From Morganella morganii (GTDB taxonomy: Bacteria; Pseudomonadota; Gammaproteobacteria; Enterobacterales; Enterobacteriaceae): DNA of 64,000 nt. Where the stretch lies: the NCBI RefSeq assembly GCF_019243775.1, contig NZ_CP069157.1, positions 1,364,001-1,428,000 of the forward strand. Direction: 5' to 3'. Position 1 is the stretch's first letter, and every line of letters begins with the position of its first letter. A model generated the notes under the pieces. That model was not told where the DNA came from. It saw only the letters and a program-made list of their open reading frames with translations, and did not search any database. The translations under genes and the position numbers were made by a program. This document shows positions 29,378 to 39,275 of this stretch, in pieces.

Positions 29378-31195
29378 ATGAATAAACAAAGTGATATAAT
29401 CCACAGTGATACTAACAACGATCTGACACGATGGAATATGCTTATGAAAGATTTTCGTTACTTCCTAAAGGAAAGTTATATCAATAGCAGGGCTTTAGTT
29501 ATTGGTATAAATAAATATAAAAATGTCCCTCCTCTTGCGTATGCAGTTAATGATGCATCAGAAATAAAGAGTTTACTCATCAATGAATTCGATTTCAAAG
29601 AGGAAAACATATCGTTTCTTCTTGATGAAAATGCTACCAAAGAAAATATATTAAGAGCATTTTCCAGACTTACAAGGGATGATATTGAACTGGATGAGAG
29701 GATTTTCATTTTTTATGCTGGGCATGGTGAAACACGAACTGGAATTTATGGCGAAGTAGGGTTTCTCGTACCTCATGACGCAATCACTGATGATTTATCC
29801 ACCTTTATACGCTGGGATGAACTTACCAAAAATGCAGAGTTGATAAGAGCGAAGCATATACTTTTCGTTATGGATGCCTGTTATGGTGGACTGGCATTAA
29901 CACGGGGAATAGGTCCAGGCAGTACGCGCTTCTTAAATGATATGATGCTACGGTATTCCAGACAAGTTCTGACAGCCGGTAAAGCCGATGAAACTGTCTC
30001 AGATTCTGGTGGGCCTTTGCCAAATCATTCAGTATTCACCGGACATCTAATTGAAGGTTTAAAAGGAAAAGCATTAACCGAAAACGGTGTATTAACCGCC
30101 AATGGTTTGATGACTTATGTTTACAATAAAGTATCAAATGATAAGTCTTCAAATCAAAGTCCGCATTATGGCTATATTGATGGTGATGGGGATTTTATTT
30201 TTAAATCTCCTTCTTGGTCCCATGACAATTTAGAGGAAACAACGGATAATGATAGGTTGATTTCGGTTCCCTATTTTCAGACGGAATTTTCTCCTTTAAA
30301 CGCTGAAGATAAAATAAGAAAAACAAAAAAATTACTGGCAAATGATTCATCCTCTATCGAGCTACATGATTTTGTGATTGATGAAGTTAAAAGTTTTCTA
30401 TCTGAAACCAGTGAGGATTTTTTCTCAGTAAATGGTCAGTTTACTAAAGAAGAACTTCTTGAGAGGATTTCTAAATATGAAAGTATATCTAAAACTATAA
30501 TCCTAATAATTTCTTGTGTCTCATATTGGGCTCGAACAATCCATATTCCATTATTAAGTAAAGCATTAGCTCGTTCAACTGACCGACTGGAAAGAGGGAA
30601 TGGTTTAACTGTATGGTTAAATCTACGATGGTATCCCTTAATAATGCAGTTTTATGCATTAGGGATAGCAGCATTTGAAAATAAAAAATATGATGTACTA
30701 TTTAGTGTTTTTTTTATAAAATTAGACTCGTCACTTTCAAACAATGGTAAACAGCTATATTTTGCTGAAGCCATTTCGAATGCCATTCTGGAATTGGCTC
30801 AACAAGGTGTATTTAAGCAACTCCCTGGATTTGAAAGGCATTTTGTACCAATGAGTGAGCATCTCTATACCATCTTGCAACCATTAATTGATGATACTCT
30901 ATTTATTGGGAAGAATTACGAAAATGTTTTTGATAATTTTGAATGTTTCTTAGCACTTGTCATCGCAGATCTGCATCAGCAGCAAGAGCGAACTCCATGG
31001 GGACCTGTAGGCCGTTTTGGTTGGAAAGAAAGAAATTTGTACAATTCCCCATTATCTAATATGATTAAGGAAGCCAAAGAGCAAGGTGTTAACTGGGCTC
31101 CATTAAAAAGTGGCTTCTTTGGAGGGGATATTTCCAGATTCTCTTTAGTTGCTGATGAATATTTAAAAGGAATATCAAAATTAAGTTGGTATTAA
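29378..31195 (+). CDS. Caspase-like (peptidase C14) protein with C-terminal effector region
   Basis: A 605-residue protein. Residues 37-260 are a caspase/metacaspase fold: SRALVIGINKYKNVPPLAYA, then FIFYAGHGE with catalytic His116 and FVMDACYGG with catalytic Cys168, both intact. The remaining 340 residues are helical and match nothing I know. There is no signal peptide. It is AT-rich, stands alone on the plus strand in the accessory end of the prophage, and converges on two small genes across a shared terminator. Bacterial caspase-like proteases act in several abortive-infection systems; that role here is inferred. Start could also be the ATG at 29438. Confidence 0.82.
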   Translation: MNKQSDIIHSDTNNDLTRWNMLMKDFRYFLKESYINSRALVIGINKYKNVPPLAYAVNDASEIKSLLINEFDFKEENISFLLDENATKENILRAFSRLTRDDIELDERIFIFYAGHGETRTGIYGEVGFLVPHDAITDDLSTFIRWDELTKNAELIRAKHILFVMDACYGGLALTRGIGPGSTRFLNDMMLRYSRQVLTAGKADETVSDSGGPLPNHSVFTGHLIEGLKGKALTENGVLTANGLMTYVYNKVSNDKSSNQSPHYGYIDGDGDFIFKSPSWSHDNLEETTDNDRLISVPYFQTEFSPLNAEDKIRKTKKLLANDSSSIELHDFVIDEVKSFLSETSEDFFSVNGQFTKEELLERISKYESISKTIILIISCVSYWARTIHIPLLSKALARSTDRLERGNGLTVWLNLRWYPLIMQFYALGIAAFENKKYDVLFSVFFIKLDSSLSNNGKQLYFAEAISNAILELAQQGVFKQLPGFERHFVPMSEHLYTILQPLIDDTLFIGKNYENVFDNFECFLALVIADLHQQQERTPWGPVGRFGWKERNLYNSPLSNMIKEAKEQGVNWAPLKSGFFGGDISRFSLVADEYLKGISKLSWY

Positions 31196-31254: not shown

Positions 31255-31761
31255 TCAATCAGGTATCCATTCATCACGCACCTTTAAGGTAGATGTGTAC
31301 TTCGTTGTTTCTAAATTATAATAGGAAGAAAGATCTTGGCTTGATGTTATATTTTTTATTTCATGAATGTATATTTCTTTGAACATTTCTCTGTCAATTT
31401 TACCATCAATATATTTCTTACATGCTTCATCATATTGGTTAAGGAGGTCTTCAATGCAAGAATCATAAGTTTTATATAATAAATCAAGAGAATAAGACTC
31501 TTCAGCGCTCAATGAGCCTGCTTGTTTTTTTGCTAAGTATGGTGTCAAGATTGGTGTCAAATTATTTATTGTATTTCTTGCGTTAGTTATGCCAGTTCGA
31601 ATTTGAAGTTCAATTGCACCATATTGCAATTTCAATGCTTCACTTGCATTCTCTTGCGCAAACTTAACATCTTTTCTTGATTTGAAAAATGTATACAATG
31701 AGAGAAGTAATGCAGCACTAGACACGGCCAATGAATACATATTATAATAACTATCACTCAT
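31255..31761 (-). CDS. Membrane-anchored coiled-coil protein next to caspase gene
   Basis: A 168-residue protein with one N-terminal membrane helix (YSLAVSSAALLLSLYTFF), a basic KSRKD stop and a long helical soluble region (FAQENASEALKLQYGAIELQ). Its start overlaps the stop of the upstream gene (ATGA), so the two are co-translated. AT-rich like the neighbouring caspase-like gene. No family recognised; it could be a membrane partner or immunity component, or an unrelated lysogenic conversion gene. Confidence 0.6.
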   Translation of the reverse strand: MSDSYYNMYSLAVSSAALLLSLYTFFKSRKDVKFAQENASEALKLQYGAIELQIRTGITNARNTINNLTPILTPYLAKKQAGSLSAEESYSLDLLYKTYDSCIEDLLNQYDEACKKYIDGKIDREMFKEIYIHEIKNITSSQDLSSYYNLETTKYTSTLKVRDEWIPD

Positions 31762-32063
31762 TGAATTCTTCCTCTATTAAGCATTGCTATTAAATCCACC
31801 AAGTCATCATTGCTGGCACTAGCACTCCCTCGACTAATAGCATCAGATTGATCGTTTTTTTCATCGAAAGAAATGTTTCTTTCATCCGCAATGGCTCGCT
31901 TTATTTCATGAATGATCTCATGTTTTTGGTGTTGCGTTATTTTCCTTAGCCTGATACCTATATCTAACTCGGAAAGAATAATCTTGAGTTCATTTAGTCT
32001 ATCGTCTTCATTTTTATTTAATAAGCGTGAAACATATTGATTTGGTGATGTATCATTTGTCAT
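31758..32063 (-). CDS. Small soluble protein, first of a leftward pair
   Basis: A 101-residue charged helical protein (LNKNEDDRLNELKIILSEL, HQKHEIIHEIKRAIADERN) with a Ser/Ala/Asp-rich C-terminus. The GGGAGG ribosome site lies seven bases before the ATG. It is coupled by ATGA to the membrane protein downstream. No recognised domain. Together they form a minimal two-gene operon facing the caspase-like gene. Confidence 0.58.
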   Translation of the reverse strand: MTNDTSPNQYVSRLLNKNEDDRLNELKIILSELDIGIRLRKITQHQKHEIIHEIKRAIADERNISFDEKNDQSDAISRGSASASNDDLVDLIAMLNRGRIQ

Positions 32064-32702: not shown

Positions 32703-33125
32703 ATGAGTATGAAACTTGTCAAGACCAACGATGACGCAATTCTGACATTGCCTCTGTTCCTGGAGCATGTCCCGGCCGGGTTTCCGTCACCGGCGGCGGA
32801 CTATATCGAGGACCGCATAAACCTGAACAGTGAGCTGATCCGGCATCCTGAAAGCACCTACCTGCTCAGGGTTGAAGGTAGTTCGATGATAGATGCAAAT
32901 ATCTTTGATGGTGATGTGGTTATCGTGGACAGCGCGGTAACCGCTGCTGAAGGTGATATAGTAATTGCCAGTTTTGAAGGTGAGTTTACTGTCAAAAAAT
33001 TGCAGCTGTCTCCTGTGCCTATGTTGATCCCGATGAATCCGGATTATCAGCCTATCGCAATCAGCAGTGAGCAGGATTTACAGATTTTCGGCGTGGTCAC
33101 CTACATCATTCACCGGGCGCAGTGA
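32703..33125 (+). CDS. umuD: UmuD, DNA polymerase V subunit
   Basis: A 140-residue UmuD. The self-cleavage site lies at Ala25-Gly26 in [11 protein letters not shown], the nucleophile is Ser61 in GSSMIDA and the general base is Lys98 in EFTVKKLQL. RecA-stimulated cleavage yields UmuD', which binds UmuC to form translesion polymerase V. The stop overlaps the umuC start (ATGA). It is carried near the right end of the prophage, so the genes may be mobile copies additional to chromosomal ones. Confidence 0.94.
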
Positions 33126-34388
33126 TGTTTGCGCTGGTGGATGTAAACAGCTTTTACGCCAGCTGTGAAAGAGTATTCCGGCCAGACCTGACAGGTAAGC
33201 CGGTCATCGTCCTGAGTAATAATGATGGTTGCGTGATCGCCCGGTCAGCAGAGGCGAAAGCTCTCGGCATCAAAATGGGGGAGCTGTATTATGAATGCCG
33301 CGCTTTTTGTCACAAAAATAATGTGACAGTATTCAGTTCAAATTATGCGTTGTACGGCGATATGAGCAGCCGTGTGATGACATTGCTCTCATCCTTCGCA
33401 CCCGCCACAGAAATCTATTCTATCGATGAAGCCTTTCTTGATTTTACCGGCATGACCAGGACATTCAGCCTGGAAGATTACGGCCGTGAGATACAGGCTG
33501 CCATTCTGCAGAAAACACACCTTCCGGTCGGTGTTGGTATTGCACCGACAAAGACACTCGCAAAACTTGCCAACCACGCCGCAAAAACATGGAAAAAAAA
33601 CCGGCGGAGTGGTCGACCTTTCTGATTCCCTGCGCCAGCGTAAATTACTGGCTTTGATACCGGTCAGTGAGGTATGGGGTATCGGCCGGCGCATATCTGC
33701 CAAGCTGAATACAATGGGTATCCGTACGGCATTAGATTTGGCGAACGCCGCACCGGCGACTATCCGTAAAACCTTTGGTGTTATCGCAGAGCGCACGCTG
33801 CGGGAGCTGAACGGGGAACCCTGTATTGAGCTGGAAGAAGTCAGAAAGGTGAAACAGCAGATCCTCTGCTCCAGGTCGTTCGGTACCAAAGTGACAGACA
33901 TTGTCACCATGAGAAAGGCCGTATGTGAATATGCTGAACGGTCAACAGAAAAACTCCGGGAAGAAAAACAACGCTGCCGTATGATCGGGCTGTTTGTTCA
34001 GACCAGCAGACACGCCAACGGGCCGGACTATGCGAACAGTGCAAACATTTCACTCGAGTATCCCAGCTGCGACACGCGGGACATCATCAATGCCGCCATG
34101 AGAGCACTGGATAGTATCTGGCGAGACGGATACCGATATTATAAGGCGGGCATCATTCTATCAGATTTCACGTATTCAGCAGTCACTCAGCTCGACATGT
34201 TCGCCATCCGGCAGCCATTCAAAAATAGTGACGAGCTGATGAAGACTATCGACACGATAAATAATAGCAGGCTGGGCCGTGTGTGGTTTGCCGGTAAAGG
34301 CAGCGATAGCAGGTACAAGATGAAGCGTGAAATGCTGTCACCGGCATACACGACAAATTTCAGTCAGCTGCCGGTGGTGAAAAGTTAA
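33122..34388 (+). pseudogene. umuC: UmuC, Y-family polymerase, frameshifted at an A8 run
   Basis: The N-terminal part shows [17 protein letters not shown] and the active-site [12 protein letters not shown]. The literal frame breaks after AAKTWKK at eight A (33593-33600) and stops at 33625. With seven A it continues [20 protein letters not shown], then GIGRRISAKL (helix-hairpin-helix) and the little-finger domain to 34388, giving 421 residues, the standard UmuC length. Either the run length is over-called or this lineage has lost polymerase V from this locus. Confidence 0.9.
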
Positions 34389-34806: not shown

Positions 34807-35052
34807 TGTTCAATCTGAAACGGTTATCAAAAAGTTTGCAAAATGATTTAGCAAAACGGTATGAAATTTGTACAGGTTGTAGGTGGTTTGAGGTTGAGAT
34901 GTGCGGGTAAGGAGAGGGTCGCTTTGAGCGAAAAGCGGAAGTTCAGAATGTATACTTACTTCGATGCTTGTTAAGCAATGGGGAGTAGGTCAGCAATTTA
35001 TTGTGAAAGCAATAACACTAATAGTATTAGTGAAGAGGCTAAAGATTTGTTT

Positions 35053-35083
35053 AGAATCCGCCCCCTTAAGAGGCGGTATTCTT
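35053..35083 (-). terminator. Terminator of the leftward nuclease operon
   Basis: AGAATCCGCC pairs with GGCGGTATTCT (one mismatch) around CCCTTAAGA. It lies directly downstream of the 35094 stop on the minus strand. Confidence 0.55.
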
Positions 35084-35093
35084 GGCAAACATT

Positions 35094-35957
35094 TTATTTA
35101 CTGTTTATCAATTGCAATAATGGGATCTCAGCTACATCATTAGGAATATAGGGGTCATCTTCTTTTAAATTAACCCCAATACAATCAACATCATTTAACC
35201 CAATTTCCCAAGCCCACCTAACATCTAACGTACTCATTTCTATCCCTAAACTATCTCTTTGTGGATGCTCAGGAACAATATTTTTTAACATCGCATCACA
35301 TCCAAGATAGAATTTTCCACAGGCCTGATACGCAGTAAGAAATCTTTCTAGATTGACATTGCTATCAGGAGTCATCGTATTAATTCTACTGATCATTGTC
35401 ATTCTTTTAGTTAATGGGGTTGTCATCATATTTTCAGATATTAGTACTCTATAATGAGTTGGGTTTTTAACTGAGATGCCCTTGACAATACAAACCCGTA
35501 ATCTGGCTTTACTATCTACCAAGCCTACTGATGATATAAGATCTTTAAAAATATCCTCACCTATATCGGGGTGTTTAAATAATAGATATAACCCTGGATA
35601 ACACGATTTTAATTGAGCGAAACCTACTCCTTGCCAGCGTGTTCTATCCCATAGACGAGGTTTGATTAGACTTTGTATGGAATAATCTTTATGTGTTATA
35701 TTTTCGAAATTAAGTTCCTCTTCAGGCATTCTTCCTTTACCGGGTGTTGGAGCTTTTATATCCTCGATCTCCAACACTTTCGAAAATTCACTATCCCAGG
35801 ATTTATCTCTTAAAAGAGGGTAAGTTTTCTTTTCAGAACTGGCGGAATAAATTTTCTTAATTTGTTGATCAATATCATTACCAAGAACATTTTCAATAGA
35901 TTTGATACAGGCACCAAAACTAATTGCTCTGTCGAATGCAGCATCTTCGAAGATCAT
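35094..35957 (-). CDS. Unknown 287-residue partner of nuclease-repeat protein
   Basis: A soluble 287-residue protein with no family I recognise. Notable segments are KPRLWDRTRWQGVGFAQL, YPGLYLLFKHPDIGEDIFKD and VDSKARLRVCIVKGISV, and a C-terminal acidic stretch. It starts five bases after the stop of the upstream gene (TGAAAAAATG), so it is translated from the same message. Base composition is AT-rich like its partner and unlike the chromosome. The tight pairing suggests a two-protein system; defence is the most likely context. Confidence 0.6.
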   Translation of the reverse strand: MIFEDAAFDRAISFGACIKSIENVLGNDIDQQIKKIYSASSEKKTYPLLRDKSWDSEFSKVLEIEDIKAPTPGKGRMPEEELNFENITHKDYSIQSLIKPRLWDRTRWQGVGFAQLKSCYPGLYLLFKHPDIGEDIFKDLISSVGLVDSKARLRVCIVKGISVKNPTHYRVLISENMMTTPLTKRMTMISRINTMTPDSNVNLERFLTAYQACGKFYLGCDAMLKNIVPEHPQRDSLGIEMSTLDVRWAWEIGLNDVDCIGVNLKEDDPYIPNDVAEIPLLQLINSK

Positions 35958-35961
35958 TTTT

Positions 35962-38348
35962 TCAATGTATTCTGTATTTTTTATAAAAAAATAACTCGGG
36001 GAGAAGATTGAACACTAATTCTTTGAATTTATTAGTGATTTTTTGTTGCACCTCGATTCTAAAATCACTTACATCAAAACCAGCGCAATTTATTGTAAGA
36101 TTTAGTTTTCCACTATTGCTATTTATTTCATGTGATAAGGATAAGTCATCATCGTCATCTGCTATTACTTCAATAATTAAAAATGCTTCTTTAAGATAGA
36201 TGTTGTCAATCGTACAGGTTGCAAAAGCACCCTCTAAAAGTGATAAGACATTAGTTGAAAACTCTATAAATGGTGACCGATTCGGAAAGTTAATTTCTAT
36301 AGTGCATCCAAAAATAAAAGATGTATGTACTCCTCGTTTGTCATGGTTATCTTTTATGCCCTTACTATTAAATCCTGTATCAAAGTCACGTATTTTTTGC
36401 AAGAAATCATTATGATCTTTATCGGCAGTAACTCCGTACTCACGTTCAAAATCTTCAATATAACCTAAAGCATATTTAAGACATCCCGATGATACAAAAA
36501 GGCCTAATCTATCGAGCTCATCGGGGATATTACTCTGTCGATTTATTCCCTTTAGGTCAGTGTTCAAAATGAGTTGACTTATGTAAAAATCGACTTGCTG
36601 ATTTTCTTTATCGCCGAACGAGCTATCACTGATATTCTCGTTAATTATTAAAAACAGTTCATACCATAAAAGAGCATGTGCTAATTTCCCTAGTTTTATT
36701 TCTGTTAGACATAAATTATAATAAATTTCAGCCTGCTTTAAAGATATCTCATCATACTTCCAGAAGTTATCTGTAATCAAAGAAGCGGATAGAAGCAAGC
36801 ATGAACGTGAACTCCATAGTAATCCAATGGATTCGTAAGCATAAGCAATAGCTTTTAATGCTAATATAAATTTATCTCGTGATTCCTCTTTATAGAGTGG
36901 AATAAAAGATTTTCCTAAATACTTGATTGCCTGATAAGGGTGACCATTTTGAAGCCTCTTTATACCTCTTCGCAGATTTAATAATGCCCCTTTAACTTCA
37001 CCACCTCTAACAGCAGATTGCTCAGTCATATAGTCTAATAAATTTTCATATGCATCTACATCGAAAAAAAATGTCATCTAGTTCGTTCAAAAGTTGGAAG
37101 TTTTTCTCAAACGGATAGCCTATTAAATTCCCGCTATTTTTAAAAATTTCATGTAACTCTTCAAATACAACCGAAGCATCTTCTACATCTGAAAACGTTG
37201 TCAGTTTATAAATGGCTTTGTGAGTTCTCGCTGTGAGCGCATTACTGGGACGTGAATCATCGTTAGCTATCTCATCTAGTTTGGCGAGCATGTTACGTTC
37301 AATATTCTCAATGTCGATTGTAGATGTTGCGTTGTTAAGTCTAATATAACTTTTATGAACGGTTACTAAATTTAAAACTTTTTCCCATTTTGAGGAATTA
37401 GTTGATGATGCTATACTTTCATACGCTAATTGAAGATTTTCTTCGAAGAGATTAAAATCTTCCATCCAAAAATGGGATTTCCAGGCGTATTGATAATACG
37501 CATCTAGCAATTGTTGATTAGTCCCGAATTTTTTTGAGATTTTTATAGCTCTTTCAAATAGACCTTGTGTTTCAATTAGTGGTTTCTCAAGTTCAGCGCT
37601 TAACTCTGCAATTTCTAAAAATATATCCACTTGTTCATATGAAATTTCAGCAGGGTTTATTTTCTCTCTAATATACTCGGTTAATTCTTCATATTTTTTA
37701 TGTTTCTTATAATCATTTTCTCCAAAAATAACTTCTCTTTTATATTGCGTTGGAACTGACAATGAATCAATGACCAATTGCTCAAAATGATTTTTGTAAA
37801 TTTGATCTAATAGCCAATTAATATCTAATATACGGACATCTATTCCAGTTTTTGTTTTTAGTGTATCCTCAACCTCTGAACGAATATTGGACTTTGCAGA
37901 TTGATTCGTTACGCAAAATACTTTAGTATACCCACGCTCTGTTTCTTTTATCTTAAGTACATCTTCATGACATTTTTTCTTCCAGTCTTTACGTGTACTT
38001 ACCGCAAAGGCCCAACGTTCTTTATTTGATGCTTCATTAACACCTTCGAACCAAAGGAGCTTATTCTGTTCCGAAACAGGGTATGTTTGTGTGTCAGTTT
38101 TACCATCCCCCCCCTGCTACAGGACCAGTCTGTTCAAGGAGATTAGGGCAAATTATTTTTTCACATATTTTTTTTGCAAAATCCTCGAATTGTAATTCTT
38201 GATTTCTTGTATTTAGCGTAGAGAGGAAGTGTTCCAGTACAACTCTATCTAAAGTACCAGTCTCTCTGATTGTTGAATCAGAAAACTTTTCAGGGCGACG
38301 GCGCCTTAAAAATTCTTTAGATGAAAATTTGGTTTTCTGTACATTCAT
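35962..38348 (-). pseudogene. Nuclease-like N-terminus plus helical (TPR-like) repeats; two run-length frameshifts
   Basis: Start at 38348, with an AGAGGAG site. Correcting two runs (C8 at 38107-38114 and A8 at 37064-37071, each one base shorter) joins three frames into one 794-residue protein. Residues 60-200 suggest a PD-(D/E)XK-like fold: GGGDGKTD, the segment RWAFAVSTRKDWKKKCHEDV, GYTKVFCVTNQ and ILDINWLLDQI. The remaining 590 residues are helical repeats of TPR-like character (for example EIYYNLCLTEIKLGKLAHAL). It is AT-rich and followed by a 287-residue partner. The domain reading is by eye; the defence role is inferred. Confidence 0.65.
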
Positions 38349-38402: not shown

Positions 38403-38750
38403 TTATTGTTCATACTGCTTTTTTTGAAGAAAAAATTGCGGAAGTTTATTTCTAGACAAGCTATCTATGTAATCACTATACCACTGCATCATCTGTTGTC
38501 TCCCTTCCAAATACTGTGCATGATTGTAAGCCCCGTGAATAGCGTTCTGATCCACATGTGCAAGCTGTGTTTCGATCCATGCAGAGTTGAATCCTTCTTC
38601 GTGCAGAATGGTACTCAATGTGTGACGAAAACCATTCCCCGTCAGCCTTCCTTTTTATCCTAATAGCTCAATTACCTGATTAATGCTTTCCTTTGAGATC
38701 GGCTTAGTACGATCATTACGTCCAATGAATGCGATCGGAGATATGCACCT
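38403..38750 (-). pseudogene. P4-type integrase C-terminal remnant
   Basis: The frame reads AFIGRNDRTKPISKESI, then KGRLTGNGFRHTLSTILHEE, FNSAWIETQLAHVDQNAIHG and AYNHAQYLEG, the C-terminal catalytic part of P4-like tyrosine recombinases including HxxR (FRHT) and the Tyr nucleophile. A TAA interrupts it between ELLG and KGRL and the N-terminal part is absent. It lies just upstream of the defence-like operon, which was probably delivered by the lost element. Confidence 0.8.
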
Positions 38751-38849
38751 AATCTTATAACATCGTGTTTTCTATGTCCGTTTCTGGCACAAACCTGACT
38801 TATGACCTAGAAAACAGATATACGAGTTCAACTATGTATCAATAAAACA

Positions 38850-39275
38850 TTATATCAACACTCTTATCCAATCTTTGCCACGATCATCAGGATATTTATC
38901 GGTTTGCTGCTGGTTTTTATGGCCCAGCAGGTTTTGGGTATTAATTCCCTGTTCCCGGTATAAACGCTCCGATAATGACCGCATTTCATGAAATGTTGCC
39001 GGTGTTCCTTCTCCCCAGTCGATATCGGTTTTATCTCTGGCTTTTTTAAAGTTGGTGGTCAGGGTATTTGCGGTTACCTTGCCGCCGGGCTGTGACTGTG
39101 ATGTATTTCTTGTGTAGTGGACTAAATATTTGCTGACATACAGATCACGGCATCCGGCAATCACATCCCGCAGACTGATATTGAGTGCCTGACACCGGAG
39201 GGAGAGGGGAATAGCAAGCCGCGTTCCGGTAACAACAGCCAGCAATACGGTATTCCCGGGATATTTATGGTCCTT
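38850..39275 (-). pseudogene. Lambda-type integrase remnant with internal deletion
   Basis: The frame starts near NTVLLAVVTGTR and jumps directly to LAIPLSLRCQALNISLRDVI, so about 30 residues of the catalytic domain expected after the first active-site Arg are missing. It continues TFHEMRSLSERLYREQGI and LLGHKNQQQTDKYPDDRGKD, with the HxxR box and Tyr present. The N-terminal half is absent. A relic of a second integration event, distinct from the P4-type relic alongside. The surrounding bases 38751-39381 contain nothing else I can support. Confidence 0.75.

Follow-up and report, generated by a model that had tools for sequence, protein, structure and literature searches.

The minus strand at 35094-38348 of the window (the whole 64,000-nt stretch of Morganella morganii DNA that was analyzed) is read as three long frames plus a short N-terminal frame. 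These frames are AT-rich (GC 32-35% over 35001-38000) and carry the motifs GGDGKTD and STRKDWKKK, both as described in the initial annotation. The E. coli counterpart is one intact ORF of 1,083 codons with 95% DNA identity over 100% of the region, and E. coli EC21Z-063 and GZ04-0086 carry it as one 1,083-codon frame annotated as one hypothetical protein. In a blastn search of 5,426 complete E. coli genomes, 26 gave a match and 23 held at least 80% of the region (best places 95-99% identical), so the gene is not a chance occurrence. The nearest intact copy lies in viral contig L106 (99% DNA identity). The 287-residue frame, which had been described as a separate second gene (306 residues when measured from stop to stop), corresponds to residues 797-1083 of the E. 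coli protein and is thus its C-terminal part. Table 1 lists the features of the gene and its immediate upstream flank.

Table 1. Features in and next to the gene, in window coordinates.
Feature	Position	Strand	Remark
Single gene, homologue of E. coli WP_039268304.1 (1,083 aa)	35094..38348	-	Interrupted by three frame breaks
N-terminal domain, residues ~1-210; motifs GGDxKxD ... S-x-x-x-x-W-x-x-K-x-x-x-D	37718..38348	-	Boundary approximate
Middle region, residues ~211-640, probably TPR-like helical repeats	36427..37717	-	Boundary approximate
Region of residues ~641-870	35735..36426	-	Own profile only
C-terminal domain, residues ~880-1083, common to SEFIR/TIR-fused proteins	35094..35707	-	
Frame break 1, at homopolymer run	38107..38114	-	
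Frame break 2, at homopolymer run	37064..37071	-	
Frame break 3, at homopolymer run	35985..35991	-	Creates the false second gene; missed in the initial annotation
Tyrosine integrase relic, residues ~287-389 of 404	38457..38756	-	tblastn with the E. coli integrase of locus L002: 62% identity, E 1.6e-41

To the left of the gene lies a prophage (7000-29300), 80% of which matches Providencia phage PSTRCR_117lys at 95% and 45% of which matches Morganella phage IME1369_02 at 92%. At its right end, after genes that read like tail fibers, a caspase-like gene (29378-31195, plus strand; Peptidase_C14 E 6e-21, PADLOC PDC-S65 E 1e-46) is a second defense candidate. Downstream of it on the opposite strand are two small AT-rich ORFs of 168 and 101 aa (31255-32063, minus strand) with no clear family in Pfam, PADLOC or NCBIfam. 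A umuC-like gene (named by reading; 33122-34388, plus strand) occupies two frames, split near an A8 run at 33593.

Among 84,980 species, each scanned in one genome, 217 relatives were found. By their record titles the 80 that were kept come from Pseudomonadota, Bacillota, Bacteroidota, Cyanobacteriota, Acidobacteriota, Verrucomicrobiota and others. A further 12 loci came from viral contigs, and 87 of the resulting 92 were examined after omission of five partial copies (L055, L088, L089, L109 and L115); a single ORF of 1,055-1,139 aa was present in 85 of the 87. Outside this count, matches were found in 18 plasmid records (in 12 of them covering 80% or more of the protein) and one phage record. 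The Kluyvera and Snodgrassella proteins are 80% identical. At the order level, 8 of 394 genomes gave matches, comprising the broken copy of the genome itself, three full-length copies, one cut short, one fragment and two SEFIR proteins that have the C-terminal domain alone in common with the family. The C-terminal third of the window gene used as query found nothing in five genus-mates. The distribution of the family is wide and patchy, with one conserved domain order.

Profile searches against Pfam and defense models, which the initial annotation had proposed as a check, gave no identification. For 40 diverse members out of the 77 aligned, none of the families in Pfam, PADLOC 2023 and NCBIfam spans the protein, and the scattered matches had E-values of 0.004 or worse. 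The pieces of the window gene searched singly against the same three databases gave nothing past a weak TPR hint. PDB searches with a single protein and three profiles returned nothing, or designed and unrelated proteins at E 0.014 or worse. The portion of the literature covered by our searches held no description that we recognized as this family, and we make no claim of its being unpublished. This is a widespread and probably immune protein without a family name in the three profile databases.

The initial annotation placed frame breaks in the runs at 38107-38114 and 37064-37071. Both are present, and its count of two has to be raised by the third break, which splits the same gene. As sequenced, the window copy has no frame that would yield the full-length protein. 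At each break, a run of 7-8 identical bases differs by one base in length from all five intact relatives compared, and exactly three such differences separate the window gene from these five. Its substitutions relative to them number 21 to 200; the 21 that separate it from the L106 copy comprise 9 silent and 12 replacement changes. It is quite possible, if somewhat doubtful, that all three breaks are sequencing errors and that the gene is intact in the cell. Their position in homopolymer runs and the small number of substitutions against the nearest intact copy would fit this explanation. Three of the five runs of 7 or more bases in the window gene are broken. However, the same genome has 42 such runs unbroken inside 205 intact ORFs of at least 250 aa, a weak control since intact ORFs are unbroken by choice. 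Compared with a genus-mate, none of 57 genes was broken at a long run; the one frame-broken gene among them had nearby runs no longer than 4, and with the roles of the two genomes exchanged, 2 of 61 genes were frame-broken in the genus-mate. As far as tested, homopolymer breaks appear to be no general fault of this assembly. Decay is also common elsewhere, as 6 of the 23 E. coli copies appear in the annotation as two pieces (an IS is present in two of the six) and 2 of the 87 relatives are broken.

Residues D81, D85, S117, W122, K125 and D129 of the N-terminal domain were invariant in all 77 relatives, and D81, D85, K125 and D129 (GGD...D, K125 and D129) were also kept in three paralogues. We take this motif order to resemble that of the PD-(D/E)XK nucleases. 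In the restriction-endonuclease pattern the motif lysine is expected at column 119, where the family has K in 52 of the 77 relatives and Q in 19, so K125 may serve instead if the domain is a nuclease. The unnamed paralogues, from Agrobacterium pusense (L141), Mycobacterium gordonae (L142) and an Acidobacteria MAG (L069:4666-7875), have the N-terminal domain in common with the family (hhalign probability 98-99). The L069 paralogue gave no C-terminal-domain match, unlike the family, and the tblastn matches of the other two are limited to residues ~36-235. On the plus strand of L069 the paralogue lies upstream of and beside a family gene, and its likeness to the family extends over the N-terminal domain and a portion of the middle region. 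The M. gordonae plasmid encodes its 1,016-aa protein near Shedu and a restriction endonuclease, and the A. pusense plasmid encodes its 986-aa protein near an S8 peptidase and a kinase.

The N-terminal domain is a putative PD-(D/E)XK-like nuclease. We consider it rather unlikely that it is instead another enzyme or a binding domain. Such an assignment would agree with the variable column 119 and with the lack of a recognized homologue in the databases searched: no relative was found in Pfam or PADLOC (40 members) or in PDB, and hhalign comparison with a single Shedu sequence and a single restriction-endonuclease sequence gave no match. The motif order and the four invariant residues D81, D85, K125 and D129, on the other hand, fit the restriction-endonuclease pattern.

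The middle region forms a profile of its own that is conserved among relatives, and it probably consists of TPR-like helical repeats; a window piece matched TPR_2 below threshold (E 0.0056, 17.2 bits vs. the curated cut-off of 27). Residues ~641-870 matched no Pfam family in 40 members.

The C-terminal part had been called a partner of no known family, and it actually contains a domain common to a few SEFIR/TIR proteins. Four small proteins carry this domain fused to SEFIR or TIR (E 3e-21 to 2e-44). When residues 880-1083 of family members only were used for a profile, it matched L011, L012 and L119 at E 2e-36 to 2e-44 and L229, a Lactiplantibacillus plasmid TIR protein, at E 2e-22; the hhalign probability of the link was 99.9. 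L011 and L012 score as SEFIR (Pfam) and bSEFIR (PADLOC), and L119 is SEFIR-like by reading. The TIR-annotated gene with the C-terminal domain (L229:2515-3633, plus strand) lies on a 14.8-kb plasmid near an AbiEii-type gene. The domain is a minority variant among bSEFIR proteins, since only 1 of 20 fetched bSEFIR-model loci carries it (L130, which is the L012 protein again). In 398 phylum genomes, searched twice in what is probably the same sample, the domain was confined to the family and to SEFIR fusions, apart from a weak match in L120 (UvrB-like by reading) that was judged to be due to chance.

We favor, with some reserve, the explanation that the window gene is a copy, inactivated as sequenced, of a one-protein anti-phage defense gene carried as mobile cargo. 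In intact relatives, the long stretch of helical repeats in the middle would keep a protein of ~1,085 residues inactive. Once a phage component or an infection signal was recognized by the C-terminal domain, DNA cleavage by the N-terminal PD-(D/E)XK-like domain would stop the phage or kill the cell. Nuclease activity, helical-repeat fold, sensor role and abortive outcome are all inferred. Of the earlier proposal, the defense-like role, the nuclease-like N-terminus and the helical middle still give the best reading, and the pair of nuclease and partner is refuted.

The same protein could have its roles distributed differently, with the helical-repeat middle sensing and the C-terminal domain only oligomerizing or restraining the effector. 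We regard this distribution as rather unlikely. It would agree with the phage-sensing role proposed for repeat regions in known systems (PMC9122126, on TPRs). However, the SEFIR/TIR proteins appear on reading to hold little beyond the effector and the C-terminal domain, which would make this domain the only candidate sensor there. We keep to the C-terminal domain as the putative sensor in the favored explanation; if it is the sensor, the short SEFIR/TIR proteins offer a minimal route to what it recognizes.

The genomic setting of the family genes is defense-rich and mobile. The nearest ORFs on either side of family genes (117 ORFs, each up to 800 aa; PADLOC E<=1e-8) matched 154 PADLOC models vs. 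11 for 117 size-matched control ORFs; what is counted here is models rather than genes, and one system can be represented by several models; the control is narrow, from two genomes of the genus of the window. Among the 25 neighbor models listed of the 154 are PARIS AriA, Septu PtuA, PD-T4-6, PD-T7-5 and PglW, which belong to separate systems. Control ORFs also match defense models (AriA, mad2/3/8, Vsr and others), so model matches alone prove little. Annotated neighbors on plasmids include AbiEii, an S8 peptidase with an ATPase, and DUF1837 with a helicase.

Of the two integrase relics named in the initial annotation, one, upstream of the gene, was borne out by tblastn (Table 1). For the candidate second relic (38850-39245), similar DNA is present in viral contigs L105 and L106. 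The Photorhabdus locus L033 has a full-length tyrosine integrase directly upstream of the gene, with residues 1-389 matching at 61%, and Kluyvera has both a full-length copy and a relic adjoining the gene. Viral contigs L104-L106 keep integrase residues ~287-389 alone beside the gene, like the window, and E. coli records have an integrase pseudogene annotated at the same place. The relic has presumably traveled with the gene. The family recurs beside defense genes and, in some hosts, beside an integrase; what recurs is no two-gene pair.

The gene may conceivably guard its mobile element rather than the cell, by excluding rival plasmids, satellites or prophages. The position directly downstream of the integrase in Photorhabdus, a P4-family primase fragment beside the gene in one E. 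coli locus, and the 18 plasmid records would be consistent with such a role, but the neighboring ORFs match unrelated phage-defense models, and we consider element protection improbable.

A partner survey covered 70 of the 87 loci, after 17 near-duplicate or broken loci had been dropped. Downstream of the family gene, 1 of 63 loci had a same-strand ORF of at least 90 aa within 50 nt; on the upstream side the count was 8 of 64. This size limit would miss smaller partners. The family gene is thus usually solitary, a one-gene unit. A two-gene operon of a nuclease-repeat protein and a separate 287-residue partner, which agrees with the frames as they read in the window, can be dismissed with near certainty, since E. 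coli and 85 of the 87 relatives have a single polypeptide that includes those 287 residues. The joint transcription proposed for two genes is thereby moot.

We compared the favored one-protein arrangement with known defense systems. The family N-terminus has a motif order like that of the PD-(D/E)XK defense nucleases Mrr, Cap4 and Shedu, whereas no sequence or profile match to these was found. CBASS Cap4 has SAVED in its effector, and the 40 family members gave no PADLOC match to such a model. STAND/AVAST and Sir2-repeat (DSR) proteins combine an N-terminal effector and a long repeat region in a single polypeptide, as proposed for the family, but the 40 members gave no P-loop NTPase or Sir2 Pfam match (E<=0.1). 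One-protein systems with this layout appear in PMC9122126 and PMC11087589. In the DefensePredictor paper (PMC13092281), 13 of 31 further validated systems have PD-(D/E)XK domains and TPR is named in figure legends; the likeness to our family is by description, and the family may be identical with one of these systems.

A further tie is to bSEFIR (PADLOC PDLC03957), as the C-terminal domain is common to the family, L011 and L012 (both bSEFIR-scoring), L119 and L229. bSEFIR is ~370 aa long with a SEFIR domain; the family is ~1,085 aa long and gave no SEFIR match in 40 members and the window pieces. The C-terminal domain thereby links an unnamed family to some SEFIR defense proteins. STAND and NLR receptors swap effectors. 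We tentatively suggest, as a possibility short of a firm proposal, that an unnamed immune family of single proteins spans phyla and combines the same C-terminal sensor module with either of two dissimilar effectors (SEFIR/TIR or nuclease-solenoid); if true, this would be a case of sensor-effector swapping that involves no recognizable NTPase switch.
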